From Diphasiastrum complanatum (Eukaryota; Streptophyta; Lycopodiopsida; Lycopodiales; Lycopodiaceae): a stretch of 64,000 nucleotides of DNA. Below the pieces are notes generated by a model. It had not been told where the DNA came from. It did not search any database and was given only the letters and a program-made list of their open reading frames with translations. The stretch covers positions 30,787,632-30,851,631 of the forward strand of contig CM055102.1 in assembly GCA_029204225.1 (NCBI GenBank), in the 5' to 3' direction. Of this stretch, positions 45,770-61,919 are shown piece after piece; the first letter of the stretch is position 1, and each line of letters starts with the position of its first letter. The position numbers were made by a program, and so were the translations under genes.

Positions 45770-46185
45770 AAGTTTTCTCTACTTGAGATATCCCTTCTTG
45801 TAGTTGACCTTGGAGACATGGGAGCACCAGAGATTGACATCTCTATCTCAGGGTGTTTAATTGAAAAAGTACCAATTGACTCTGGGTCAAGCGTTAATAT
45901 TATGACGGAAGATACGGAACTTGAACTTATTGATATCAAGCCTACTCATAGAAAGATTAAACTGGCCAACTCAACAAGAAGGAAGCCTGTAGGAGCGTCA
46001 TGAATTTTATTGTCATCCGACCAGTCGAAACAGGCAACTACTCTATCCTTATCGAAAGACCTTGGCTATATCAAACAAACACCAATGTTCATTGGAGGAA
46101 AAAGGAGTTGCGGTTTTGAGTAAGAGAACATGATGAACAAGGTGCCGCCCATATTTCCCGATCGCCGGACTCTGATTTTGAAGAG
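45770..46185 (+). pseudogene. gypsy protease fragment
   Basis: The frame reads EIDISISGCLIEKVPIDSGSSVNIM, with the retropepsin DSG active site, then LIDIKPTHRKIKLAN. Shifted text after 46005 fits the later GRPWL region (SKDLGYIKQT). It follows copia integrase and precedes a copia LTR without its own ends, so it sits at a recombination junction. Confidence 0.7.
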
Positions 46186-46189
46186 GGAG

Positions 46190-46860
46190 TGTGAGAGATT
46201 TCAACAAGTTTAGTGTTTAGTCATATTTCAACAAGTTTAGTCTAGTTTAGTCATATTTTAGTCTAGTTTAGTCAAGTTTATTCTAGTTTAGTCTAGTTTA
46301 GTCATATTTTGATAAATTGTTAATATGAGGCCAAAACTCATTTTAGACTTAGAGATAAACTTTTTGAAGTTATAAAATACATTCAATAAACACTTTTTGA
46401 AAGTGTGGGAAAGTTGGTAGTTGAGTTTGAGAGAGATTCAAATTTGAACTTTGGGTACATTGAATCTAGACCCAAGACAAAACCTTCTATTTTAAGCACT
46501 TTTGGTCCATTTTTCTACTATATAGAGAACTAGTGAAAACTCTTCTAGAAGTATAAACTCGACTTTTACAGCCTATTCCACATGTGTGAGCAGACCTCTA
46601 CACATGGAATGTGATACCTAATCTCATGATGTGGATCATGCAATCACTAGATTGATGCCATGTGGCATAAAACTTAAAAACTTGATTTTGGCCTTTTTAG
46701 CCAATAGAATTTGGATTAAACCATATGTACAAGTTGTATGATTGTACTACATGAAAAGTACATTTATTTCACATGTGGGAACAGGCTCCACACATGTGTA
46801 ATCATAATAGACACAAGTCTTTATGATATTTACAATGTTTGATCAAGTTTGCTTGTGCCA
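46190..46860 (+). repeat. copia LTR related to family 1, plus strand
   Basis: Begins tgtgagagatttcaac after gaagagggag. The middle matches the family 1 LTRs (aaagtgtggg, caaatttgaa, gaatctagacccaag), and the end includes tgtttgatcaagtt. A tract near 46200-46320 repeats agtttagtct or agtttagtcat about ten times. Inverted CACATGTG sites lie at 46571-46605 and 46770-46803. Confidence 0.7.
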
Positions 46861-47329
46861 ATTTTCACAGTTGCCATGATGTTGTTGGTAGAAGACGTGG
46901 CAATTTGTGACCATGTCGTTAGCAAGGTTGCCAGTATTCACACCTATCAGCTTGGGCCGATAAATTTTATTTTTTGCCTTTGTAAGGGTTGATGGTGCCA
47001 AGCTGGCTGTGGATCAAGGAATTTGGCCACTTCTTTATAAGTTTTTCATCAATCGAGGTTGGGAAGAATATAGCTGCCTCGCTCCTTGGTTTGAAACTTC
47101 TTGCCGAACTCTTGAGATATCAGCATTTCCTTGCTAGGTGCATTTGGAGTGATCCTAAGCCTTATTGAGGGTGCTTCAGCTGCAAAGGCATGTTCCTCTT
47201 GTGGATTGGGTTGAAAGGAGTACAACTATAAGTGGGAAGAAAAGATCTCTGACAGCCCTCAAACACGAAAAGCTACCACCAACTATGGTTGTCTCTTACA
47301 AATGATGGTCTAGCAACACTTAGGGCACA

Positions 47330-48371
47330 GGACAACTGCAATCCTCAAAGAACTCGAAGATCTGTATCATGCCACCAGAAAGCGGGCCAGTCCTTAAGTA
47401 TCAACCGAACTCGCCTCATCTGCACCTCCCACAAAGAAGCAAAAGGGTAAGGGCATAAGAACTAAAAAAGACATCTCCCCTGATATCTTATCCAGTGATA
47501 TAGGGGCAAAGTATGTTGAATCCGATGGAAGCCTTAAAGCTTCCCAGGTCCCAAACGAACTATTGGTGCAACAAGAGGCCCTACTTCAATAGGCCCAACG
47601 AAGAAGACAAGTAGTAACAGCTGCCATTAGCTCTTTTGATGGAGGCACTTCCAGCTCCAGCAACTTAGATCAGTTCAGCTATTCAGGTATCGTCTCCTAC
47701 TAACACCACTCTCCTTCCACCATTACCTCTACCACTTATTGCCATATCCACACCTTCCATTACATTTAACATGGGCCTTGATACCATTCCAAAAAGACCA
47801 TCTCCCGTACATATTTCCCCTCTGCTTGACTCTTTGATCAACGTAGACAGTTTTGCCTTACACTTACTAACGCAAACCCAATCCACCACTATAACAACCA
47901 GTCCCATCCATTCTTCTCAACATGTCCTTCTATATGAAGGATCAGTTGGAACAGGTCAACTTCACAGACTTTGCACCTCCAGCTATTCCCAAGGGAACTC
48001 AGATTCCAGTGGAGGCATATCAAAAGTTGGCACAAAAGTTAAAGGCCACAATGGAGCAACATACCCAAATGCGAAAAGCATATACTACCTCTGTCGAGGC
48101 CTTAAACCAATGTATTGCCACCCTAGAAGAAAATCTAAAGGCAGCCACCCAATCGGCACCTTCTGTCCATGTAGAACACACTGAGTTTCACCAATCAGGG
48201 TATTATTACGATGGATCCGATGGTGGTGATGGGATAGGTTTTCAAGGGCCTACAATAGTAAATCAGGTGTCAACGTTTCAAGTCTTAGATCAAGTGTTGG
48301 CAGCTCCTCCACCAATCGACCTACATTGGTGGTACTTCTTCCCAACATCTCTTCCACTCTTTCGCTTCTAA
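47330..48371 (+). pseudogene. unrecognised coiled-coil reading frame
   Basis: First part (47330-47690): open except for two stops, with a basic PPTKKQKGKGIRTKK stretch like a nuclear signal and ELLVQQEALLQ. Second part (47922-48371, 149 codons): VEAYQKLAQKLKATMEQHTQM and ALNQCIATLEENLKAATQS, predicted coiled coil, then a Gly/Asp patch GSDGGDGIGF. The general design (Ser/Thr-rich region, coiled coil) resembles the extra-ORF family, but I cannot align them. Function unknown. Confidence 0.4.
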
Positions 48372-48469
48372 CCCCATTGACACAACTAACTTTCCCTTCA
48401 TCTGACCCCAATTTTCTCCTGGATCCCAATGCATTGCTGAATCTAATCCATCACCACCTCTCTCGTGGG

Positions 48470-48872
48470 GTCGTTCAACGTCATGGTAAGGGAAAAGAGA
48501 TCGCTCGGTGGAATGCGATCTGTGTGTACTATGTGCACTTCGACTAGGACCATCAAGAGCTTCCATCGTTGCACGTAGTTTGGGATCCTTGATCAGCTTT
48601 ACGACAATACCATCATTGGTCTGAGCAATGGTTTTGTCATCGTCAATTAAGAACGTCTTGAAGTAGTTTTGATTTTAACTGGTGCCCTTGCTATAAATGG
48701 TCTCTCCAGCTTCTGGAAAGCCAATTAGTTGAATCCTGGTTGGGGTAATGTCGATGGTGATGTAACTGCTAACCTTGTGAAAATCAAAAAGCCATCCAGC
48801 TTGACTTTTGGGGTTGATGGAGATTTTCATCTTGCATGTTGTGTTACAATCAAAATTAGCCTTGTAGGAACT
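48470..48872 (-). pseudogene. unrecognised minus-strand reading frame
   Basis: The minus strand is open for about 130 codons with one stop: CKMKISINPKSQAGWLFDF, then YITIDITPTRIQLIGFPE, then TFLIDDDKTIAQTNDGIVV. The composition is that of a folded protein and the frame is not explained by base bias. I do not recognise the family. It abuts the opposite-strand coiled-coil frame. Confidence 0.4.
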
Positions 48873-49059
48873 CGAGCTACATCATAATGTCTAGTTGTCA
48901 TATGTGACATGCATATAGACTTAATTCATGAAATGGCCAAATTTGAGCTAGTAGGAACTCGAGGTACCATAAATGCACAAAGTCCTAATTTTCCAAAGTG
49001 ACATGCAAGGCATGCAAGAGTTGTCATGGACACATGCAAGTGAATTTGTACATTATTGA

Positions 49060-49820
49060 CTCAACGCATGAACGAGAACAATTTGCGATAGTCAACGTGT
49101 CTTTGACTCAAAGCACGAACGATTCGCGAATCAATCACGAATCGCAAACACCCCTTCAAGACCACAAAGCCGAAAAAGGGACGCGAAACGAAAACTACGA
49201 AAAGAACGAAAGCAAATGGGAGATAACGAAACAAACAAAGGAAAATCTTTTGCGTTGCCAGCTGGCAGCTCAACGGGCTTCACGCCCAGCTGAAACGAGT
49301 AGCAACGACACAGACTAACTAAGTAGTTGATTAGCATTAACTAGTGATGTGATTCTATGTTTAGCTATCTTGTAAACTCCACATAGTGGAGGTATAAACG
49401 ATCCTCTCTGGATCATAAAGTAAATAGTGAATACAAGTAGTGTATACAGAGATCGATAAGAGACAGAGAGAGACGTAGCAAATAGAGTAAGAAAGAAAAG
49501 ACACCATAGCTATGCATGAAAGTCTGCCAACGAGTAGAACACAGCGAAAGAGTAGAATGTCATTCCGCCAACGAGTGAGACACTGACGAATTCACTCTAA
49601 ACTAAAACTGATAATTCAGTCACTCTATTTTCGTGCATCTTGTCTTGTGCTGTGGATCATGATTGCTAGAATAGAATATGTTCTTTGATGCGTAGTTGAG
49701 TGTCTGGGATCCTGTAAGGACTTCCGCATAAAAGAAAATCAAAAGACAGAAAATTGTTTGCAATAAAGAAGACGAAGTGAGGACGAACACAAACCAGTCC
49801 CATGCACACACTCCCGCGAC
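49060..49820 (+). repeat. probable copia LTR before primer site
   Basis: Lies directly before a copia primer site and gag. It includes gattcgcgaatc and tcacgaatcgcaaa near 49110-49145, similar in kind to the TTCGCGAA sites at 14081-14383. No second copy is present, so limits are inferred. Confidence 0.45.
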
Positions 49821-49821
49821 A

Positions 49822-49833
49822 TGGTATTAGATC
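49822..49833 (+). other. copia primer binding site
   Basis: tggtattagatc, two changes from tggtatcagagc, about 50 bp before the gag ATG. Confidence 0.75.
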
Positions 49834-49883
49834 CACCAGGTTGTCACTATTGATATCCCAGCGATTCTTCCAGACAACATAAT

Positions 49884-50519
49884 ATGGCTACGGCAATCCA
49901 AACCAGAGTAGCAATTAGTCTCGATGGCGCAAATTACAGAATCTGAAAATTCAATATCAAAACACTCCTGAAGGGCGAAGACATCTGGTCGGTGACCGAG
50001 CTCTCAGAGGTGCAGCCTCCAGAGTAAGACCCGAGGAGAGCTGAATGGATCAGAAAAGATGAGCACGCAATGGCGATCATCGTTTCGTCCATAAATGAAG
50101 ATCTACTCATGCAAATTGAAGACTGCAAAAGCAGCCATGCAGCATAGGAAAGATTAAAGCAGAAGTATGAAGTGAGGACTGCAGCTTCAGTCATGCACCC
50201 TCATAATCAACTACAATCAATAAGGTGGGATGGCAACCAGTTGGATCAGCACGTTGAGAAGATCAGAACGATCTTCGCTCAACTCGTTGCATGAGGACAA
50301 GAGCACCAGGTCCCAGCACCACAGCAGCTGATGTACTTCATGAAATCTGTACCGACGTCCTATCAGCAACTGAGAATGCTCATACTGAGTCTACCAAATA
50401 TGACATTCGACAAAGCAGTCAGTCTTGTCGCTGATGAGAGACTGATGAGAGATGAAGGAGAGAGAAGCAGTGATCAAGAGAAGGCTCTCTTCACGAAAGG
50501 CAAGAAGAAACAATTTTAA
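49884..50519 (+). pseudogene. copia gag
   Basis: One frame from ATG to TAA is 211 codons with four internal stops. It has TLLKGEDIWSV, EWIRKDEHAMAIIVSSI, MYFMKSVPTSYQQLRMLIL and EKALFTKGKKKQF, a UBN2-type copia gag. The zinc knuckle and pol that should follow are absent; the methyltransferase-like gene begins within a few bases of the stop. Confidence 0.85.
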
Positions 50520-50521
50520 AT

Positions 50522-52757
50522 TCTAGACATAAATCAATGTGATAGGCCACTTGTAGATCCAATAACAGGAGACAGGCCAATGGAAGTTACAGAGCCTAAT
50601 GAAACACATGTACATAATTTAAAATTAAACTTTAAAGATCATACACAGGCCATAGTTACTCCCTTTGTTGTTTTGGTTGATCCCAACGAATGCAATGATG
50701 TTGCAAATTTTGATTTTTCTTTATTAGATTCATATCATTTTTTTTGTTCTTGGGGGGATATACAGTTTACAAGCTCAAAAACAATTATCTCAAGAATATC
50801 CCCATATTCCAAGCTTTCAAACTGTGAGTGCCATTGCATTTGCTGGCCTGACAATGGAAGAAGCAAAATTATTGGCTTGGGACCACAATATTGATTAGGA
50901 CTACCGGATGAAGATGACCGTGATACAAAGAAGTCCTTTTTTTCACAAAGAATACATGAGAGTCTCCAAAGCAGGAGATGTAAATCAACTTGAGCTGAAA
51001 GCACTATGTGCTCAAGAGACAGGCCTGTCTTTTGGTTTGAAAAATCCTACACAGAGCCTTACTAAATACGATAATTTTTTTCAGCCTGCTTTTGGTAGTG
51101 GCCAGGTAATTTGTTTGGCTATGCTCATTATGGAATGCTCTGGTCATAATATATGTTGTAATCTTTTTAAATTGTTTTTATCAGACTAAAATTTTGAGCT
51201 CAATTTTAATATTGGTTAAATTCTTTATCAATTAATTTTTTTTTAATTTCAGGTGTGGGCCCTTGTTGATAAATTTTTTGAAAACTTTTCAAATAAAAGG
51301 CCAACCTGCTCAGGGTGCCTCAAAACAAAATTGTGAGCACTCAAACTCTGAAGCCAATCCCTACTGAAATGAGAATATTAGAGTGGAAGAATATGCAAGG
51401 GATTAGCTCTTCAGAGCTAATAATAAGTGTTCTTTCAAGAGTTGCCGATGGTCAACTTTCCCTGACAAAAATAGGAAAAGAATTTCAGAGGTAATAATCA
51501 TAATTTAAATATTTATTTTCATGTTACCTTTTTTAATAAAATGATTTTCATAATTTGATTGGATTTCTAACAATTATATTTTTTAAATGCAGGCACAAAT
51601 TATTTATAAAAGTTCAAGAAGCCCTTGTAACAGGGTTAAATTGTCAAGATTTCGATAAGTGCCAGAGGCTTTATCCTCTGAGCAGCCGAAATGAAGCCCT
51701 GAGTCCATTTTTGATTTTGTTTAGAGACATGGTATTTATTTCACCCATGCTTAGCATAGGTGCTTATTAATTGTTTCTTTTCTATATTCTATGTCTCCTA
51801 TGCTAAGCATAGCTTTTTCTTTATTTAATTATTATTTTTTGATAAGTTAAGTCTCCTATTCTATTTTATATTTTTTTGTCTCCCATGCTAAGCATTGTTT
51901 TTTCCTTTTCAGTCTCCCGAAGACAAAAAAAAACAAAGTCCTTCCAGAGCAATTCAAGAGACATGTTCTGAAGGCAAAAGCAGAAAAAAGAGACAAGGAG
52001 ATATTGGCACGGGGTGAGACCATTGCGGAGGAGGATCCATTAGAGACCTACTTTCCCAAAAGTGTCGATGATCAACCATGCTTTTACTCTATTGAGGAGG
52101 GCGATTGCAGAGAAATTTCAAAATTTTTAAGAAAAAGGCCTTAAAAAAACACTCTACATCGCCGATACACATATGGATTTCAGATGAAGGAATTATTAAA
52201 TGATGATACTCCTTTCAAATTCACTAAAGTCCATAGTTTTATGCAGGGCTTTCTTGAAGTCACAACTTCTCCAATTTGGAGGGTTGTTATTTTTCATTCT
52301 TCTTGGCAGTCAGCATCAGTACAGAAAGCTCTACTAACTTTCTGCAATGCGGGAATTGCGAATGCTGTGTGGTAAGTTCTTAAGTTTCTGAATTATCAAT
52401 TCGTATTTTAATTCATAATTTTATTTTAAATTTTTTATTTTAAAATTAAAATTTTTAAATTAAAATTTTTAAATTAAAATTTTAAATTGATTTTACTTGT
52501 AATGTTCCATGTCAGGTACAAGCCCAATGTCGGGAACTCGGGAGGAGCTCGACTTTGCAATGAAATAGAATACATAATCATCAGTTATTATTCTTTGGAT
52601 GGCAAATGCTCGATGCTGCATTATAACACTTTCGGACTGACAAGTTTTGGAAACTTGTTCCAGTATCCAACTGTGACAAAAAAATTAAAAAATCCAATGA
52701 CGGGTTCCGTGGCTTGTCCCTACCGAAAGCCACAACAATTAATTAATCATTTATTTG
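50522..52757 (+). pseudogene. five-exon ParB-like / DNA N4-N6 methyltransferase-like gene, decayed and truncated
   Basis: Exons: about 50522-51105, 51253-51490, 51593-51731, 51913-52371 and 52516-52757; introns of 147, 102, 181 and 144 nt, all GT-AG with matching phases. Exon 1: PFVVLVDPNEC, then GGIYSLQAQKQLSQEYPH, which fits a ParB-like domain, then GLTMEEAKLLAWDHN. Exon 4: TLYIAD followed one base out of frame by YGFQM, where a DPPY motif IV would lie. Then WRVVIFHS and, across intron 4, NAVWYKPN. Exon 5: EIEYIIIS, NLFQYP and CPYRKPQQLI, as near the end of amino-methyltransferases, before the FxGxG SAM site, which is lost. These enzymes methylate adenine N6 or cytosine N4. Frameshifts lie near 50745, 51315, 51925 and 52145-52170. 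Domain calls rest on motif order only. Confidence 0.6.
51732..51912 (+). repeat. intron with three copies of a palindromic 15-mer
   Basis: catgcttagcatag (51746), ctatgctaagcatag (51798-51812) and catgctaagcat (about 51893) occur in this intron, twice preceded by tctcc. The same palindrome is at 62755-62769. Confidence 0.85.
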
Positions 52758-53210
52758 ATATGTAATAATGTTTTCGTAAAGAAAACGCATGACAATCTTT
52801 GTGTTGGCGTCCTTTCTTGCCCGAGCCTCAATCCATTTAGTGGCATAATCTGTGGCTATTAGGATATAACGGGCTTGTGTGTGTTTCGCTACTGGGCTGA
52901 TTGGTCCAACAAAGTCAATTCTCCATTTATGAAAGGCTTCGTTTTTTATAATGGGAGTCAAAGGTGTGAAGTCTGCTTTCGTATTTTTCTTGGCTCATTG
53001 ACAGACATCACATGTTTTAATGACAACAAATGTGTCTTTAAATAATGATGGCCACCACAAGCCTTCTCAAAGGATAATCTTAGCTGTCACTTCAGCAAAG
53101 AAGTGACTGCCGCCAATGCCCTCATTAGCCTGAGATATGATAGGTCATAGCTCAGATTCATAAGCACATCATCGGATAATATCGTCAACGTCCCTTCGGT
53201 TGAGATCAGG
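52743..53210 (-). pseudogene. gypsy integrase zinc finger and core start
   Basis: Minus strand: the H2C2 finger region (GIGGSHFFAEVTAKIIL, then TCDVC in shifted frames at 52990-53140), followed by KWRIDFVGPISPVAKHTQAR and LIATDYATKWIEARA with the first catalytic Asp (open 52743-52961). The rest of the core is missing where the methyltransferase gene ends. This is a different gypsy lineage from 21208-21795. Confidence 0.8.
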
Positions 53211-53780
53211 ATGGAAGGCTCCAGTCAAGATTTAACAAGAAGCCTCCGATTGAGCTCTGATAGGAAGTTTTGATCGAGATCTAAGAGAAATCCTCCGGAC
53301 GAGAGCTAACAGAAAGCTTCGGTTGAGATGTGAGAGAAAGCCTCCAGTCAAGATGTGACAGGATGCATGATTTGAATGGAATGCCCTCAGTCGAAACTTG
53401 ATAGAAAGCTTTGGTTGAGATGTTACAAGATGCCTCCAGTTGAGATTTGACAGAACGCCTCCTGTCGAGATGTAACTGAAAGGCTCGGGTGAGATTTTAT
53501 CGATGAGCATCGGTTGAGATTTAACTCAAGACTTGGCAAGATATTTCTAGTAGTGATTCGGTCGAGAGTTGATGTGTAGTTTTAATAAGTGAATGAAACA
53601 AGGTTTGGTCCGGTCCAGACGAGAGTCGTGGAGCTCGGCTAGATAAGGATTGTGAAGCCTCGGTTGAAAACAAAGCTATATGTCGGTCGAGACCAAAGTG
53701 ATGAGCTCGGTAAGGATGCATGTGAGAGATTTCAGAGCGATGGTTTGGCAACACAGATTGGAAAGGTTTAACGTCGATAA
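53210..53780. repeat. degenerate 30-33 bp minisatellite
   Basis: About ten units of the type aaagcctccggttgagatgt occur from 53210 to 53530, with units near 53290, 53322, 53352, 53408, 53436 and 53466. More diverged ggtcgagac words continue to about 53700. It abuts the integrase fragment. Confidence 0.8.
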
Positions 53781-55358
53781 GTGTCTGTGTAGCTGTATAA
53801 ATGGTGCCAAACGTTCACACATTCCAGCCCAATCTATGAACACGATTTTCTTCTTTCTTTACTTCTTCTCTTTGTTATGTCTCAGGTGGTTACTGCTCTA
53901 GAAACTGGGTGTTCTACTCGTTTCCAAAAGACAATTCTTTACAATTAAGCCTCTTGTTTAGAATGGTTTCCAGGCAGAAGTATTTCTCAGTTTGCAGCAT
54001 GTATTCCCAGCCTGTCAGTGGGATGAAATGGTTACGTTCACTTAGCTACATGCATTTACAAGCCATACAACCAAATCCTTGCTCAAGCACAGATTAACGT
54101 TTTGGACAGAGAGCAAATCTACAATCTATCTACCAAACTATCCTAAGAGATCAGGGAACAATACAATAACAGGATTAAGCTACTCAACAAGAAACAAGAA
54201 TAAAAAAAGCTAATCTTCCTAACAACATTTTAGCAACCCACGAATCGAGAAACACCCATTTTTTGATGCTTGGAATATCCAAGGGCAATCAAGGATATGA
54301 TTGTTAGTAAAAAATGCAAGAGCAGATCCACAACCTCAGCCTATATAGTTTACCTGAATGCTCAAACTACAAAATCAAGAAACAAGAAAATTAATCCACA
54401 TCTACATTCCACAAAACAAGAAAGTAAGCAAGAAATCTAATTAATCCACAATCACACAAAGAAATCAGAACATGCTCATAGGAATTTCACTCGAGAAGAT
54501 AGCCATGAACAAGGAGCTTCTCAATTGCCAAGAATTCGTGGAATATCTTCTTTATTCAATCAAGAGAAATGACAATACAATCAAGATGTTAGTAGAGAAA
54601 TTGATCACGCACATCGCAAGCTCTAATACCATGTGAAAAATAAAGTTTCAAACATTAGAACTAGGCCAAGAGTGAATGCACAAGCCTCCAAAGATCATGA
54701 GGTAGACAAAACACTCACAACTGTGCTTCTAAGATCAAATTCACATCATGCATTATTGAAATGATAAAAATAAAACTTAATCATCATCAGAGCTGATAAC
54801 TATTTGTTCTCTTTCAAGAAACCTTCACTGGGTTGCAAACACCTTCGGTTTTGATCACAAAAACTTCAGTTTGAAAGGCAAACAATCCTTCCTAGCAGAT
54901 TTCCAAAAACATTAGAAAAACCGTCAAAAAACACCAAAAAATCATCAAAACCCTTAAAATACAGAAAGAGAACCTTCGTCCGATTCATTGTGCATAGGTG
55001 TGATTCAGATCTATCTACTACCAAGTTGGCGAAGAATAATACCAGAAATAGATGGTTTTTTCAGAAGATCAGTTGTCATATTGCCATATTTTTGCCAAAA
55101 AAGTCACTTTTTTGCAAAAATACTAGTATTAGCCTTGATCCTTCGCCAAAACCTCTGGCGAGTTTCCAGAACATTCCTTTTATAATAAAATACTATTTTT
55201 GAGTTTGACGAACATTCTTCTTATCCATATCATAGAAAATCTTGAGCCATAGTTTTATTTGTGTCAGATTTTGAATCTGAGAGTTTGACGAAGGTTATTT
55301 CCCTAAAAATTGTCATAAAAATCTGATCAAAGAGTTTTTTTCCAAAATAGCACAGTTG
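53781..55358. other. no gene; possible LTR and copia primer site
   Basis: A copia primer-site complement (gctctaatacca, one change) lies at 54620-54631 on the minus strand. A TATA-like tgtataaatgg is at about 53792. No gag is recognised to the left of the primer site. The right part, to 55358, is AT rich and may be the leader of gypsy element 2. Confidence 0.4.
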
Positions 55359-55405
55359 AACTTTTTCCTATGGCCTTAACAAACGCAGCACAAGATTGGT
55401 ACTAT
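55359..55405 (+). repeat. 47-bp copy of gag sequence in leader
   Basis: Identical to 55892-55938 inside the gag gene, in direct orientation 533 bp upstream. The surrounding sequences do not match, so it is a short templated insertion. Confidence 0.95.
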
Positions 55406-55674
55406 TTCTATTTCGCCAGTTCTATTTCTAGGTTCTGATTTTTCAGATCAAGTCTCTGTCAAAATATGGGTCAAATCTGATACAGTCTGATTTGGATTCT
55501 AAGAAATTTTTCATTTTTTAGAAGTATCGATTGAATTTAATTTTGAAATCTTTTTCATGATATAGAAATCAGATTCTTGAAAAGTGGAATAGATCTAGCA
55601 GATCTGATCTGGAATAGTTTTGATTGAAAAATCTAGATCCAATCTCATTGTCTGCTTGATTTGAATTTGTGAAG

Positions 55675-56616
55675 ATGGCTGCCCCTGGAGGTGCTCCTTA
55701 GGAAGTCAATCCAATCATTGTTAGAAGAGCCAAGAAGCATTACTTTTAAAAAAAGCCAAGAAGCATTGCTAGAAGAGCACCCGATTTGGATCTACCCAAA
55801 TACAATGGATTAACAGATCCAGTTAGATTTCTTCATATCTGTGCTGAATCATGTGAAGTTTGTGGTGAAATTTTCCCTCAAGATAAACTTAAACTTTTTC
55901 CTATGGCCTTAACAAACGCAGCACAAGATTGGTACTATAATCAAAATGAAACTGAACATGCAGATTGGGAGGTTGTTAAACGAGCCCTTATCACACAGTT
56001 CAAACATCGAAAGTTTATGGAAGACCCTTTCCTACGTTTAAGTAAAATTAAAATGGGAAAGAGAGAAATGGTTCGAGATTACATTGAACGGGTGAAACAC
56101 CTCAGATCTGAGTGCAAACCTGAGCTAATTAACGAAAATGCCATGATTATATGGTTTTTGTTAGGTGTACCTAAACGAATCAGACGTGAGCTAAAACGCT
56201 ATAATGAGTATGCAGTCTTGCAAAATGCTATGGATGATGCAATTCGGGATACGAAGTTCTATTGTTGTAATCCTAATGTTGCGGACCTGATAAAGAAAGA
56301 ACTTCAGAGATTGCTTGATGCCAATTTCATTTATGAGATCGAGCATACCGAATGGATCTCACCGATTGTCATTGTTTCTAAGAAGAATGGGAAATTGCGA
56401 ATTTGTGTGAATCTCAAGGCTTTGAACAAAGTGACGTGGAAGGATCACTTTTCGTTACCTTTTACTGAAAGCATTTTGGATCGCCTTGTTGGAACGGAAG
56501 CATATAGTTTCCTGGATGGATTTAGTGGTTACAACCAGGTTAAGATTGCACCTGCCAATCGCCACAACACGGCTTTTCACCTATTCATACAAAGTAATGC
56601 CGTTTGGACTCTGTAA
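55675..56616 (+). pseudogene. gypsy element 2 gag fused in frame to reverse transcriptase
   Basis: From ATG 55675 with a stop near 55699; open 55786-56616 (276 codons). The first half is gag capsid (DLPKYNGLTDPVRFLHIC, AAQDWYYNQNE, DYIERVKHLRS). At about residue 160 of the open frame it passes directly into RT (LIKKELQRLLDANFIYEIEH, SKKNGKLRICVN, SFLDGFSGYNQV). The zinc knuckles, protease and linker, about 2 kb in element 1, are deleted without loss of frame. Confidence 0.85.
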
Positions 56617-57060
56617 TGCACTAAGTTTGTTCCAAAGAGTGATGCAATTTGCTTTATAAGATTATCTACAAAAATTTCTTAAAATTTACTTGGATGACCT
56701 GGGAGTCCATAGTACAGATACAGACCACCTGGATCGATTGGAGAAAGTATTTGAAAGATGTCGCAAATATCAAATATTTCTAAATCCAGAAAAATGCCAG
56801 ATATGGGTTTCCTACGGGGTTGTGCTTGGGCATGTGATATTGAGACATGGTATTGCCGCAGATTATTCTAAAATCAAGATTATTGTGGAGTTGCCACCAC
56901 CAACAACGATTTGTGGAGTTTATGTGTTTATGGGTCATGCGAACTACTATCGAATTTTTATTATCTTCTTTGCGGATTTAGCAAGACCTATATACAAACT
57001 GACTATTGTTCCTATTTGGACAGTAGAGGCATTAGAAGCCTTTGAAAAATTTAAAAAAAA
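56617..57060 (+). pseudogene. gypsy element 2 reverse transcriptase, second part
   Basis: After a frame change, the MPFGL counterpart (near 56600) and the catalytic box KIYLDDLGVHS (56680-56710) are visible, then FLNPEKCQIWVSYGVVLGHV and GVYVFMGHANYYR. Both catalytic aspartates are kept. An A-run near 57049-57062 shifts the frame before RNase H. Confidence 0.85.
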
Positions 57061-57458
57061 AAGCATTAACTTCAGCACCAATACTACATTTTCCAAATTG
57101 GATAATTGAATTTCATGTTCACACGGATGCCTCAAAATATGCCATTGGATCAGTTTTGACGCAACCAGATGATTATAAGAAGGAATATCCTATACGATTT
57201 GCAAGCAGACAACTTACAGATCCGGAGAAGAATTATTCAACAACAGAACGTGAAGCGTTAGCCATGATTTTTTCTGTTCGGAAATTTCGTATGACCCATA
57301 AACGATTTGTGGAGTTTATGTGTTTATGGGTCATGCACTTTTTATTTTATACGGATCACCAGCCGTTACTATACTTGGTAAACAAGACATGCAATACAGG
57401 ACATATTGCAAGATGGTTACTATTATTGACTGCATTTGACTTTCGAATTGTGGTTTGA
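57042..57458 (+). pseudogene. gypsy element 2 RNase H with 36-bp internal insertion
   Basis: HTDASKYAIGSVL (Asp), TTEREALAM (Glu) and YTDHQPLLYLVN (Asp) are present in one open frame of 138 codons. Between the second and third lies a 12-codon insert (57301-57336), identical to 56905-56940 in the RT region and read in another frame. It disrupts the helix before the last catalytic Asp but keeps the frame. Confidence 0.85.
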
Positions 57459-57903
57459 AAGGGCAAGTAACACTATCTAGCCGATCACGTTTCACGAATC
57501 AAATCCGCACCAGTTAATACTGAAGTGGATGATGAATTACCAGTTTCTATGTCGAAGTAGTACCTGAGTGGGTAGCAGATATTACAATATTCTACGTAGA
57601 TGTGTTTTACCGCATGATCCCAGATTTAATCATGTTTTCACATGATGGCATGGGCGGAGGACATTTCTCTACAGATATTGTTGTTCGCAAACTTTTACAA
57701 TCAGGTTGTTGGTGGCCTAAACTTCATAAGGACACAAAAAATAATATTTAGACATGTGATGTTTGCCAGTCCGCATCGGGAGAGCAGCCAACATGGAGAG
57801 TTACCATTTTTGAGAAAACTCTGGAATCTATCAGGAGTTATGTGGCCAGCCCTTGCCAATTGCGGGTAGATCCGTATTATGTACCGATGCTGAGAAGGAA
57901 TAA
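57459..57903 (+). pseudogene. gypsy element 2 integrase zinc finger
   Basis: A tether stretch (SRIKSAP, VVPEWVADI in shifted frames) precedes the H2C2 finger: GGGHFSTDIVVRKLL, then WWPKLHKDTK and TCDVCQSAS. The catalytic core that should follow is absent; the sequence passes within about 130 bp into the extra ORF. Confidence 0.75.
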
Positions 57904-58400
57904 ATGGAAGGATTAGGGATTGGCTATGGACAAAATCACAATACATACGCCCAATTGGCCAATCATCCATCAGCCATACACCTGGACGATATCAGTGGAT
58001 TTCCATTGGGCCTTACAAGCATACCAGTGGGAGTATATCCACTCTCCTCATCCGACAGTGCGACAATCGGCGATGTTTGCAAAAGATTTAACTCTATTGG
58101 CATCAGTGACAACCAGATGGGATGATTGCCTTCCTACTCTGGCATTCGATCCAAATAAGCCAATGGCCTCAGAGAATATCAAGGATCAACTACCGGTTGC
58201 TCGACTATATTTTCGTGCAGCAATGATGGGAGGCTCCTGGGAATCTCGCTTCACATCTTGGATGACCTCAACGTGGATTGCAGGAGCCCATCATTGTCTT
58301 TTGCCACATAATTTGGATTTTAATCTGTCCGACTCGACTTTATGGAGAAGGTGCAATACCATTTAATAAAAATTCATCACGAAGCTAATAAAAGTCCCCA
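57904..58400 (+). pseudogene. extra ORF family, C-terminal domain before the 3' LTR
   Basis: The frame 57920-58366 (148 codons) reads VRQSAMFAKDLTLLASVTTRWDD, then LAFDPNKPMASENIKDQLPV and RLYFRAAMMG. It aligns clearly with 33634-34194 on the minus strand (ETKWDDFLPSIFFDPNKAL, EDQLPVARVYYRA). After a shift near 58340 the ending FMEKVQYHLIK matches FMEDVTGYLIN. It stops about 60 bp before a polypurine tract and an LTR unlike the G family, so the same ORF goes with a second LTR family. Confidence 0.7.
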
Positions 58401-58454
58401 ATAACTGCATCTTGCAGGTGTTGTGGGACCGCCACCAGTTTTGGTGGGGGATAC

Positions 58455-58729
58455 TGTTGGAGAGTTTGTGGATCCCAAGGCAACCCTAACCCTAGTTAAT
58501 AAGTGAGAGAGATTTGGCACCCTACGTGTGTAAGTCCAACCCAATGATCACATAGAGATTTGATTATTTAGAAAGCCAATAAAAGGACTTTAGGCCTTTT
58601 TGCGGGACTTTTAATGTCGCAGGGCCTAAATGTCAAGTTGTCAAGAATTAGATATGCAACATCAAGCATTCACCATAAGCAATCACCACAAGAAGATGGA
58701 AGAAGAACACGCACTGTCACTTTATCACA
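58455..58729 (+). repeat. gypsy element 2 LTR start
   Basis: Begins tgttggagagtttgtgg after the polypurine run ggtgggggatac (58443-58454). Only about 275 bp is assignable before the minus-strand copia element. No matching 5' LTR is seen. Confidence 0.65.
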
Positions 58730-59242
58730 CTAACTCATACAGAATGTGAAAAGTACAGATAAACCCTGAACCAATTTACATCTACCTAATGACTTAGTAA
58801 AAATATCTGCCATTTGATCTTCAGATTTACAAAAAACAAGATCAATGGCTCCATCAAAAATTTTCTCTCGAACAAAATGGTAGTGTATTTTGATGTGCTT
58901 GGTTCGAGCATGTAGAACTGGATTTTTGGCAAGGTCAATGCAACTTTGATTATCGCAAGATATAGTAGTCGCATCCACTTGTGGTTGACCTAAATCCACA
59001 AGCAACCTCCATAACCATACCGCTTCTTGTGTAGCATTGTTGAGTGCTCGATATTCAGCTTCCGTTGATGATAAGACTAATGTAGGTTGCTTTCGGCTGC
59101 TCCATGAAATTGCAGCTATACCATAACTGAATGTATGACCAATGGTAGATCTTCTGTCATCAATATTACCTGCCCAACCGGCATCTGTATAACCTACCAA
59201 CATTGGCGCTTCAGGCTGATCATACTTCAAACCAAAATTCAA
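58730..59242 (-). pseudogene. copia element 3 RNase H
   Basis: An open frame of 170 codons on the minus strand: VGYTDAGWAGNIDDRRSTIG (first Asp), ISWSSRKQPTLVLSSTEAEY (Glu), ISCDNQSCIDLAKNP (Asp), HARTKHIKIHYHFVREKI and MADIFTKSL. All family catalytic residues are present. This is the end of Gag-Pol in the most complete copia element of the window. Confidence 0.9.
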
Positions 59243-59248
59243 TGTCCC

Positions 59249-59829
59249 TCAAATGTATCTGAGAACACGTTTAGCAGACTTCCAATGTGCTTGACTAGGA
59301 TCTTGCATAAATTGACTAACAACACCAACAACATAAGAAATATCAGGTCGTGTGTGTGTCAAATAAATCAAACTACCCACCAACTGTCTATACAAATAAG
59401 CATCCACTTTCTCATATTCATCATATGTAGTAAGCTTCATGTTGACATCCATAGGTGTACTCAAAGGCTTACAATCCTGCATATTGAACTTATAAATTAA
59501 ATCTTGTGCATATTTGCTTTATTTCATCAACTATAATAATCAGATCATACACTTACAACACAATGAACACTATATATGAGCTTGTAGGATCAGCATCACT
59601 CTTTAACATTCCCCTTCGCTTGAAGTGTTCATCAATGCAAGAGTACCACGCCCGTGGTGCTTGCTTCAATCCATAAATGGCCTTGTTGAGCTTACAAATG
59701 AGATGCTCTCTCCCTGGCTCAACAAATCCTTGAGGTTGTACTAAGTACACCTCTTCATCCAGCACTCCATTAAGAAAAGCATATTTATTGTCTATTTGAT
59801 GGATCTTCCAACCATAGAAAACAGAAATA
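59249..59829 (-). pseudogene. copia element 3 reverse transcriptase, C-terminal part
   Basis: Minus strand: NKYAFLNGVLDEEVYLVQ, PQGFVEPGREHLICKLNKAIYGL and APRAWYSCIDEHF (59553-59829). Then come CKPLSTPMDVNMKLT and LVGSLIYLTHTRPDISYVVG (59249-59482). The YVDD catalytic box and about 80 residues around it are missing at 59483-59552, so the enzyme is dead. Confidence 0.85.
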
Positions 59830-60184
59830 GCAATGATAGAACGATTCCATTGAAAATCAGATCTTTACAGTCCTAGAATTTCCTTTCCAAAATTACTGAT
59901 GTCCCATACCATCAGCTCTTCCTTCCAAAAAACTCTTGACCGCCGTATATGATATTCTAGAGATCTCCTGATCATCTAGATGTTCTATAGTCCATATAGG
60001 GTATTATCTTTTGTTCCCAACATTGGAGAAATCATTTATTCGGATGACTGGCATGCTTATCAGATGGATACCACAAATCCACATCTGACCTGTGATCTAA
60101 GCAGAAGAATTAACATGGTTTAGTATTACATTCTGATCTTTTCTGATTAATGATAAGCTTCGAAACCCTTCTGATGCATAAAAT
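59830..60184 (-). other. 355-bp insertion splitting copia RT
   Basis: RT sequence stops after GIDFEKTFP at 60185 and resumes at 59829 with GWKIHQIDNKYAFLNG. The DNA between has no RT similarity and no terminal repeats I can see. It may be a small non-autonomous insertion or filler. Confidence 0.55.
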
Positions 60185-60982
60185 CTAGGGGAAGGTTTTC
60201 TCAAAATCAATACCTTCCCGCTGCTCAAATTCTCTCGCAACCATCTGTGCTTTGTACTTGTTGAGTTGCCCATCAGCTCCATATTTGATCTTGTATATCC
60301 ATTTGCAAGTGATAGGCGTCTTACCATCAGGTAGCTCAACCAAGTTCCACGTCCTATTTTTCGTTATAGCTTCCATTTCTATTTCCATAGCTTCACCCCA
60401 CTCCTTGTGCTCCTTTGCTTTATCAAATTTTTTTGGTTCTTGAGCCTTGAGCACAGAACCCATTAGGGCTAGATTCATCTCTAATCTTGCAGGAGGTTTT
60501 CGATTTCTACTTGATCTTCTAAGATCTCCCTGCTCACTAAATTTGGGAGTATCTCCCTTATTAGCATCACTTGTTACTGACAAGTACCACTTAGGCACTC
60601 TCCTAGGAATCTCATTATTGACCCTGTCTTTTTCCATTGGCTCTTTCATATCGACACCAACTTCTTCCTTCACTTGCACTTTAGCTTTATCATCAAAGGG
60701 ATCAATTGTCAATTTTATTTGGTCATTTTGACCCATCTCATAAAAAGTAGTATCTCTGGAAATCATGATCTTTTCATCAGGTACATGAGCGTAAGCATTA
60801 CAACCAAATACTCGTAAATGAAAAACGTTAGGTTTCTTTCCAGTAAAAGCTTCGTAAGGTGTCTTACCCTCCACGGACTTTGTAGGACATCGATTCAAGA
60901 TATGAGTAGCTGTGTTGCATGCTTCTGTCCAAAAAGTATTTGGCAAACCCTTGCTCTTAAGCATTGCCCTAGCCATCTCCAC
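60185..60982 (-). pseudogene. copia element 3 integrase end, linker and RT start
   Basis: An open frame of 265 codons: MARAMLKSKGLPNTFWTEA, NRCPTKSVEGKTPYEAFTG and LRVFGCNAYAHVP (integrase C-terminal region). A charged linker with DLRRSSRNRKPPARL follows. RT begins with WNLVELPDGKTPITCKWIYK, then YKAQMVAREFEQREGIDFEKTFP. The long open frame suggests a fairly young element. Confidence 0.9.
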
Positions 60983-61767
60983 AATGGATATGTCTTTCCA
61001 TTCTGCAACTCCGTTCTGTTGTGGTGAATAGGGTGTAATTATAAACTCTGTTGAAAAATACTCACCGCCACCATCTGATCTGAGGGTCTTAATATAACAA
61101 CTTGTTTGTTTTTCAACTAGAGCCTTGAACTCTCTAAACTTGGCAAAAGCATCAGATTTCTTGCTTATGAAATAAATCTAGATATGTCTACTATAGTCAT
61201 CAATGAATGTGATGAAATAGTAACAACCACTAATGGACCTAGTTTGTATTGGTCCACATAGATCACTATGAACAAGATCAAGAATGCCATTGGCTCTTCT
61301 TGCTCCATCTTTGGGAAATCTCTCTCTCTCTCTCTATGTTGTTTTCCCAAAATGCAACCCTCACAAATTTTTCCTTCAAAAGAGATATCAGGCAATCCAA
61401 CAACTAGATTACCTCTTTTAAGAATTTGCAAGCTTTGAGCACTGATATGACCAAACCTTTGATGCCAAAGATCACTTCGACTATCAACAATGCTTACCAT
61501 AGCTTGAGTAAAACATCTCGCATTCAATTTGTAGAGTCGATTCCCGTTGACTCTAGCTCCTGTAGCAATCACTTTGTATTGATTCTTGATGTCTTTGACA
61601 AGACATTTGTCACTGTCAAACTCAACCTTGAGTTGTTGATCAGCCATCATCCCAACAAATAGTAGATTGCTAGCTAAGCCAAGTAAATATTGCACGTTGC
61701 GTATCTGCTTTATCTTCCCGCTGGCTAACTTCACTGGTACCACTCCAGCTCCTTTAACAAATAGCAA
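60983..61767 (-). pseudogene. copia element 3 integrase and GAG-pre-integrase
   Basis: Minus strand: NVQYLLGLASNLLFVGMM, then zinc finger WHQRFGHISAQSLQ and CEGCILGKQHRE, then the first part of the core (61165-61260). A core section in another frame (60983-61164) contains the second Asp and the QQNGVAEWKD stretch. A short (TC)n run at 61320-61336 lies after the zinc finger and encodes RERERD, replacing normal linker residues. Confidence 0.85.
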
Positions 61768-61919
61768 TTTGACATTATCTTGTCCAACTTCATCACCATT
61801 TCAGTTTCCTTGAGTTCTGAAAACCACTCTTTCCTTGAAGTCATTTGCTTGGATGCACCACTATCAATGTACCATGTATCCTTGGCTTCATCACTTGTCA
61901 TTAATACTATAATGAACAA
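61731..61919 (-). pseudogene. copia element 3 aspartic protease
   Basis: Minus strand: DTWYIDSGASKQMTSRKEWF, with the DSG active site and the CX-like ASxxMT pattern of copia proteases. Frame changes join it to the pre-integrase part at 61767. Confidence 0.85.

Follow-up and report, generated by a model that had tools for sequence, protein, structure and literature searches.

A probable decayed, truncated copy of a plant ParB-methyltransferase gene family in Diphasiastrum complanatum

A 64,000-nucleotide stretch of the Diphasiastrum complanatum genome, hereafter the window, contains at about positions 50522 to 52762 a sequence that was originally predicted to be an intron-bearing gene joining a ParB-like domain to a DNA amino-methyltransferase. 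Is this a working gene, to which family does it belong, and how might a lycophyte have come by it? In our view this sequence is very likely the truncated and decayed remnant of a gene from a plant ParB-methyltransferase family, the intact form of which comprises a ParB/Srx-like domain and a ParB-type HTH followed by a beta-class amino DNA methyltransferase. Homology and decay are seen directly in this copy.

Exon-intron structure and decay of the locus

Homology to the relatives described below begins at about 50522 and ends at 52762, all parts lying on the plus strand. The exon 1 remnant (50522..51105) covers the ParB/Srx-like domain, reads DPITGDRPMEV...VLVDPNEC...VLGGIYSLQAQKQL...LAWDHNID*DYRMKM...FQPAFGSGQ and, together with later exons, is 39% identical over 288 aa to the relative P0001; tblastn alignments cover it as well. 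Intron 1 (51106..51252) is of the GT-AG type with phase 0, and the homologs are continuous across the join (G-x-x-W). Exon 2 (51253..51490) represents the ParB-HTH-type region, VWALVDKFF...IPTEMRILEWKNMQGISSSELIISVLSRVADGQLSLTKIGKEFQ, and is separated by intron 2 (51491..51592; GT-AG, phase 2) from exon 3 (51593..51731), the linker HKLFIKVQEALVTGLNCQDFDKCQRLYPLSSRNEALSPFLILFRDM, which aligns with P0032 and P0020 (HKVYMKIQE...). Following intron 3 (51732..51912; GT-AG), in which a 49-base unit is repeated at 51775-51907, exon 4 (51913..52371) carries further linker and the first half of the methyltransferase with YSIEEGDC, the motif IV region IADT/YGFQ and FHSSWQSA. Intron 4 (52372..52515; GT-AG, phase 2) contains an AT-rich inverted repeat at 52405-52488, and the exon 5 remnant (52516..52762) continues the methyltransferase, WYKPN...NEIEYIIISYYS...PYRKPQQLINHLFDM, aligning to P0002, P0029 and P0039. 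In tblastn P0039 (model Gb_37443) aligned to the 3' half of the copy, exon 4 included, at 3e-15, the alignment continuing to the final DM. The motifs quoted in the original prediction were all found in the sequence.

The four GT-AG introns that had been proposed are thus present, and the reading frame is kept at joins 1 (phase 0), 2 (phase 2) and 4 (phase 2), but the claim that all phases agree does not hold for join 3, which is one base off relative to the homologous frame: the final letters of exon 3 are ATG, up to 51731, and exon 4 is in the frame of its homologs from 51914 onwards. Alternatively, the frame changes inside the A9 run at 51925-51933. The relatives give independent support to intron 2, since 21 of the 31 proteins that carry the box preceding it (31 of 53 relatives) terminate at the matching codon, its position thus being common to relatives whose ORFs end there. 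We infer that these 21 proteins are single-exon ORF predictions from genomic DNA. As for the other ten, P0020, P0032 and P0047 continue into the homologous next exon, P0029 and P0039 into later exons, and P0034 and P0037 into different sequence, and P0015, P0016 and P0022 terminate 2 to 17 residues beyond the intron 2 codon.

The original prediction had overlooked frame changes and a stop codon, and what it described as a gene is a pseudogene. In exon 1 the frame changes in or close to the T8 run at 50738-50745, and a TAG stands in frame at 50896-50898. In exon 2 it changes near 51297, and in exon 4 twice, in or close to the A7 run (52143-52149) and within motif IV, at about 52164-52175. The 5' part of the gene is absent from the copy. 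At the other end the exon 5 remnant stops directly 5' of motif I (DPFSGSGTT in P0029); this motif is lacking in the copy, and no significant C-terminal piece was found elsewhere in the window. Having lost its frame, its 5' end and the SAM-binding motif I, the window copy can neither bind DNA nor methylate it. Long-read assemblies err in homopolymers, and since three of the five frame changes are in or beside such runs (T8, A9, A7), some of them may be assembly errors. That all are, and that the gene is alive, is nevertheless very unlikely: the TAG and the frame changes near 51297 and within motif IV lie outside long runs, the window yielded neither the 5' part nor motif I, and the end is adjoined by integrase-like sequence. 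Even if the homopolymer changes are errors, the TAG stop, the two remaining frame changes and the truncations remain.

Relatives and domain composition of the family

As query for the homology searches we used the read-through translation with X at the breaks, in versions of 564 aa and 186 aa for Pfam. Neither version matched any Pfam family at E<=10, and the two profiles on which the original prediction had relied for the spliced translation, PF02195 (ParB N-terminal domain) and PF01555 (N6/N4 methyltransferase), were both unmatched by the window's own translation. Since the read-through is without a Pfam match, this direct test fails by the standard set in the prediction itself. The read-through matched the 555-aa protein P0001 with an E-value of 8.1e-55, and a Diphasiastrum protein, P0002, with 4.7e-6, exon 5 being 73% identical over 37 aa. 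P0002 (O6H91_Y145100) is a predicted ion-channel protein whose residues 332-368, at its end, correspond to one exon of the methyltransferase family; the model is probably a chimera, and the exon a further relic of the family.

In total 53 relatives were collected, 37 via P0001 and 33, overlapping with these, via a 13-row profile that included the read-through. When all 53 were compared by tblastn with the real 2.5 kb, 140 segments were obtained at E<=10, the best scoring 115 bits, in contrast to 1 to 18 segments each and at best 29.3 bits for 21 control sequences (one reversed, 20 shuffled in two-base blocks). Named relatives come from Ceratopteris (one) and Adiantum (three), and seven EukProt models are labelled Gb_, which by this label we take to be Ginkgo biloba; relatives therefore occur in ferns and, it seems, in Ginkgo. 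A tree of 24 relatives, chosen from the 53, and the window copy contained a fern-like group, a Ginkgo-like group with its kin and a group of Adiantum only, with the window copy and P0035 on long branches of unsupported placement. The seven Gb_ models (Gb_10123, 03516, 37443, 14868, 17912, 14004 and 39111) are close to each other, yet their exon content varies and so do their motifs I and IV, which suggests that the family multiplied in one plant, read as Ginkgo. They are a poor sample, because in several of them exons are missing or these motifs vary.

The ParB-like domain of the original prediction was borne out by the predicted fold of a relative and not by the profile of that domain. PF02195 matched neither the window read-through nor any of the 24 relatives scanned out of 53, the weak Pfam matches in relatives being to DUF6551 (best 0.0064) and, once, to HTH_ParB (0.05), and a PDB profile search returned no ParB by sequence. 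Structure comparison, however, revealed the ParB N-domain fold in one relative, in the predicted structure of its N-terminal half. In the structure alignment with VIA-align 7bnr ranked first by Z (10.6) but superimposed with an rmsd of 10.4 over 137 residues, and we therefore quote the tighter row, 7bm8. Across the fern-like group the ParB box, GGSHSAEAR, hardly varies; the boxes known from ParB-type proteins are GERR and GGCHR. The plant family thus resembles the ParB/Noc/KorB and sulfiredoxin superfamily in the predicted fold of a relative, with a GGxHS box replacing GERR/GGCHR, and differs from it in its fusion to a methyltransferase and in lacking PF02195 in the 24 relatives, CTP binding being putative.

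The assignment of the C-terminal half to the beta-class amino-methyltransferases, with motif IV where the original prediction had placed it and in an intron-bearing plant gene, was supported via the relatives. PF01555 scored above its curated cut-off in five of the seven Gb_ models, only relatives matching it, and reached 7.8e-19 in Gb_10123, where motif I is DPFSGSGTT. At the position of motif IV the window copy has IADT / YGFQ, compared with IADAPYGFK in Adiantum P0037 and IVDIPHGYN in Gb_37443, and in the latter (P0039) motif IV precedes motif I, with IVDIPHGYN at 376, NPYQKPQ at 516 and DLFSGSGTT at 541. This permuted order of IV, KP motif and I, together with matches of relatives to PF01555 and to the phage family phrog_67 (1.5e-27 for the methyltransferase part), is shared with the beta-class N6-adenine/N4-cytosine methyltransferases of bacteria and phages such as CcrM, RsrI and MboIIA. 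The plant family differs from these enzymes by its N-terminal ParB-like part, its introns and its variable motif IV, and is about 25% identical to the phage enzymes over the domain. Amino-methyltransferases were matched weakly in the PDB profile search, at E 0.077 or worse (MboIIA 0.077, RsrI 0.76), and NCBIfam methyltransferase models, including CcrM, far under their cut-offs. The AlphaFold model of P0039 (pLDDT 51) was too poor for a structure search with the methyltransferase.

The consensus of the catalytic motif IV is [DNS]-x-P-[YFW]. Among the five relatives in which a pattern located motif IV, one has D-x-P followed by an aromatic residue (DAPY), the others having DALY, DISQ and, twice, DIPH. 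Motif I is DPFSGSGTT in one of five relatives, and the motif I region of P0037 is still more degenerate. Catalysis in the family is uncertain, since motifs IV and I vary among the relatives. As these motifs vary among copies while GGSHSAEAR hardly changes among the fern-like relatives, the family may have lost catalysis and be a DNA-binding protein of the ParB type with a degenerate methyltransferase fold still in place. We regard this reading as possible and no better than tentative, for Gb_10123 combines its strong PF01555 match with an intact DPFSGSGTT, Adiantum P0037 has DAPY, and several of the sampled copies themselves appear to be mis-modelled or decayed.

Flanking retroelements and the origin of the family

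Both ends of the copy adjoin retroelement-like sequence. On the 3' side a piece of Ty3-type integrase on the minus strand (52743..52994) adjoins the truncated end; its match to PF00665 (rve) is weak, with E 0.0023 and 18.6 bits against a curated cut-off of 32.6. On the 5' side adjoins an ORF on the plus strand (50295..50519), gag-like by eye and without a Pfam match, which presumably resembles a Ty1/copia gag. The 5' edge is blurred, some tblastn alignments extending to 50442-50502, across a stop and into this ORF. Upstream of sequence that is gag-like by eye, at 49822, lies TGGTATTAGATCC, which we take to resemble a copia-type primer binding site. Next to the integrase piece, degenerate tandem-like units with an offset of about 90 to 125 bases occupy 53194-53476. 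Farther along the window a degenerate Ty3-type element extends over 55750-57455, with gag (PF03732, 5.9e-9) and a weak reverse transcriptase in one ORF and RNase H at 6e-29, and Ty1/copia-type pol pieces are found on the minus strand at 60188-61800 (gag pre-integrase 2.1e-15, RVT_2 8.5e-11).

In the simplest reading both ends were cut by retroelement insertion or rearrangement, with decay afterwards. Retroelement-like sequence at both ends, weakly matched at the 3' end and recognized by eye at the 5' end, where the ORF has the same sense as the gene, is also what capture and carriage of a gene fragment by a retrotransposon (transduplication) would leave. We judge this to be very unlikely, as the introns are kept and the two flanks seem to come from elements of different types, oriented oppositely. 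Moreover, no LTR pair was detected within 46000-60000 and no second copy within the window, where seven relatives gave just four off-locus matches, at E 0.6 to 2.4. The proposal of a transposon-borne gene is accordingly unsupported.

For the family as a whole we infer a bacterial or phage ancestry. PF01555 makes acquisition from bacteria or phages plausible by established knowledge, and the horizontal acquisition put forward in the original prediction is plausible in view of the similarity between the methyltransferase part and phage enzymes; a donor was not found. A search of phages with P0039 gave 536 records, with about 25% identity where most of the domain aligns and none covering 80% of P0039. 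Viral contigs contained no relative of P0001, and P0039 gave two short methyltransferase-like matches there, L005 (31%) and L006 (35%). In prokaryote genomes, patterns derived from P0029, which catch close relatives only, matched 296 times and yielded no relatives.

A ParB-methyltransferase fusion had further been called typical of phages, which was not reproduced for near relatives. In the four phages whose CDS tables were read (L001-L004) the match falls in a methylase gene that stands alone, 675, 768, 789 and 786 bp long, respectively, and none of the annotation listed under the phage matches (the 15 best and 60 spread over the 536, overlapping) names ParB. Searches with the ParB part gave no match at E<=1, with P0041 in phages and plasmids and with P0034 in phages. 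Phage ParB-methyltransferase fusions exist and may be too distant for such searches.

Intact members and other eukaryotic amino-methyltransferases

To our knowledge, accepted eukaryotic writers of bacterial-type amino-methylation on nuclear DNA are few. The fusion of a ParB-like part to a methyltransferase rests on the gene models P0029, P0032, P0037 and P0039 and on the collinear order in the window; no transcript uniting intact versions of the two parts was found. In intact members the ParB/HTH part would bind DNA and the C-terminal domain would methylate the exocyclic amino group of adenine or cytosine, base specificity and use of CTP both being putative.

Two eukaryotic enzymes lend themselves to comparison. 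Marchantia MpDN4MT1a/b, which writes 4mC in sperm, is also a plant amino-methyltransferase, and a bacterial origin is stated for it in PMC12344493, PMC8566409 and PMC8885841. As described in PMC8885841, the Marchantia enzyme is without additional N- or C-terminal domains, unlike the present relatives, which carry a ParB-like domain, preceded in the fern-like group by another N-terminal one; the comparison is one of descriptions only. The bdelloid N4CMT, likewise a eukaryotic beta-class enzyme with an added domain, bears a C-terminal chromodomain according to the same paper (PMC8885841) and has an SPPY motif, in contrast to the N-terminal ParB-like domain and D-x-P-type motif found here. No chromodomain was matched by Pfam in the 24 relatives, five with PF01555 among them. 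The architecture is thus distinct from that of both enzymes. Membership of the window gene in the DN4MT1 4mC family, to which a shared plant occurrence and the reportedly bacterial origin of the Marchantia enzyme (PMC12344493, PMC8885841) might point, is unlikely in view of this difference, and none of the protein matches, most of which are without a species name, is named Marchantia.

The plant ParB-methyltransferase family is apparently undescribed, as no description of it was present among the matches listed in the open literature. It is possible, and we put this forward tentatively, that ferns, Ginkgo and probably lycophytes carry functional, undescribed amino-methyltransferases, writers of 4mC or 6mA with a ParB-type domain that loads the enzyme onto DNA, which would be a third eukaryotic solution beside DN4MT1 and N4CMT and would make the window copy its relic. 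Ferns and Ginkgo, like Marchantia, have motile sperm. The candidate family would offer genes with which 4mC or 6mA could be tested directly in vascular plants, and would be an instance of plant chromatin reusing a partition-type domain from bacteria; it may also indicate an unstudied DNA mark in ferns and Ginkgo.
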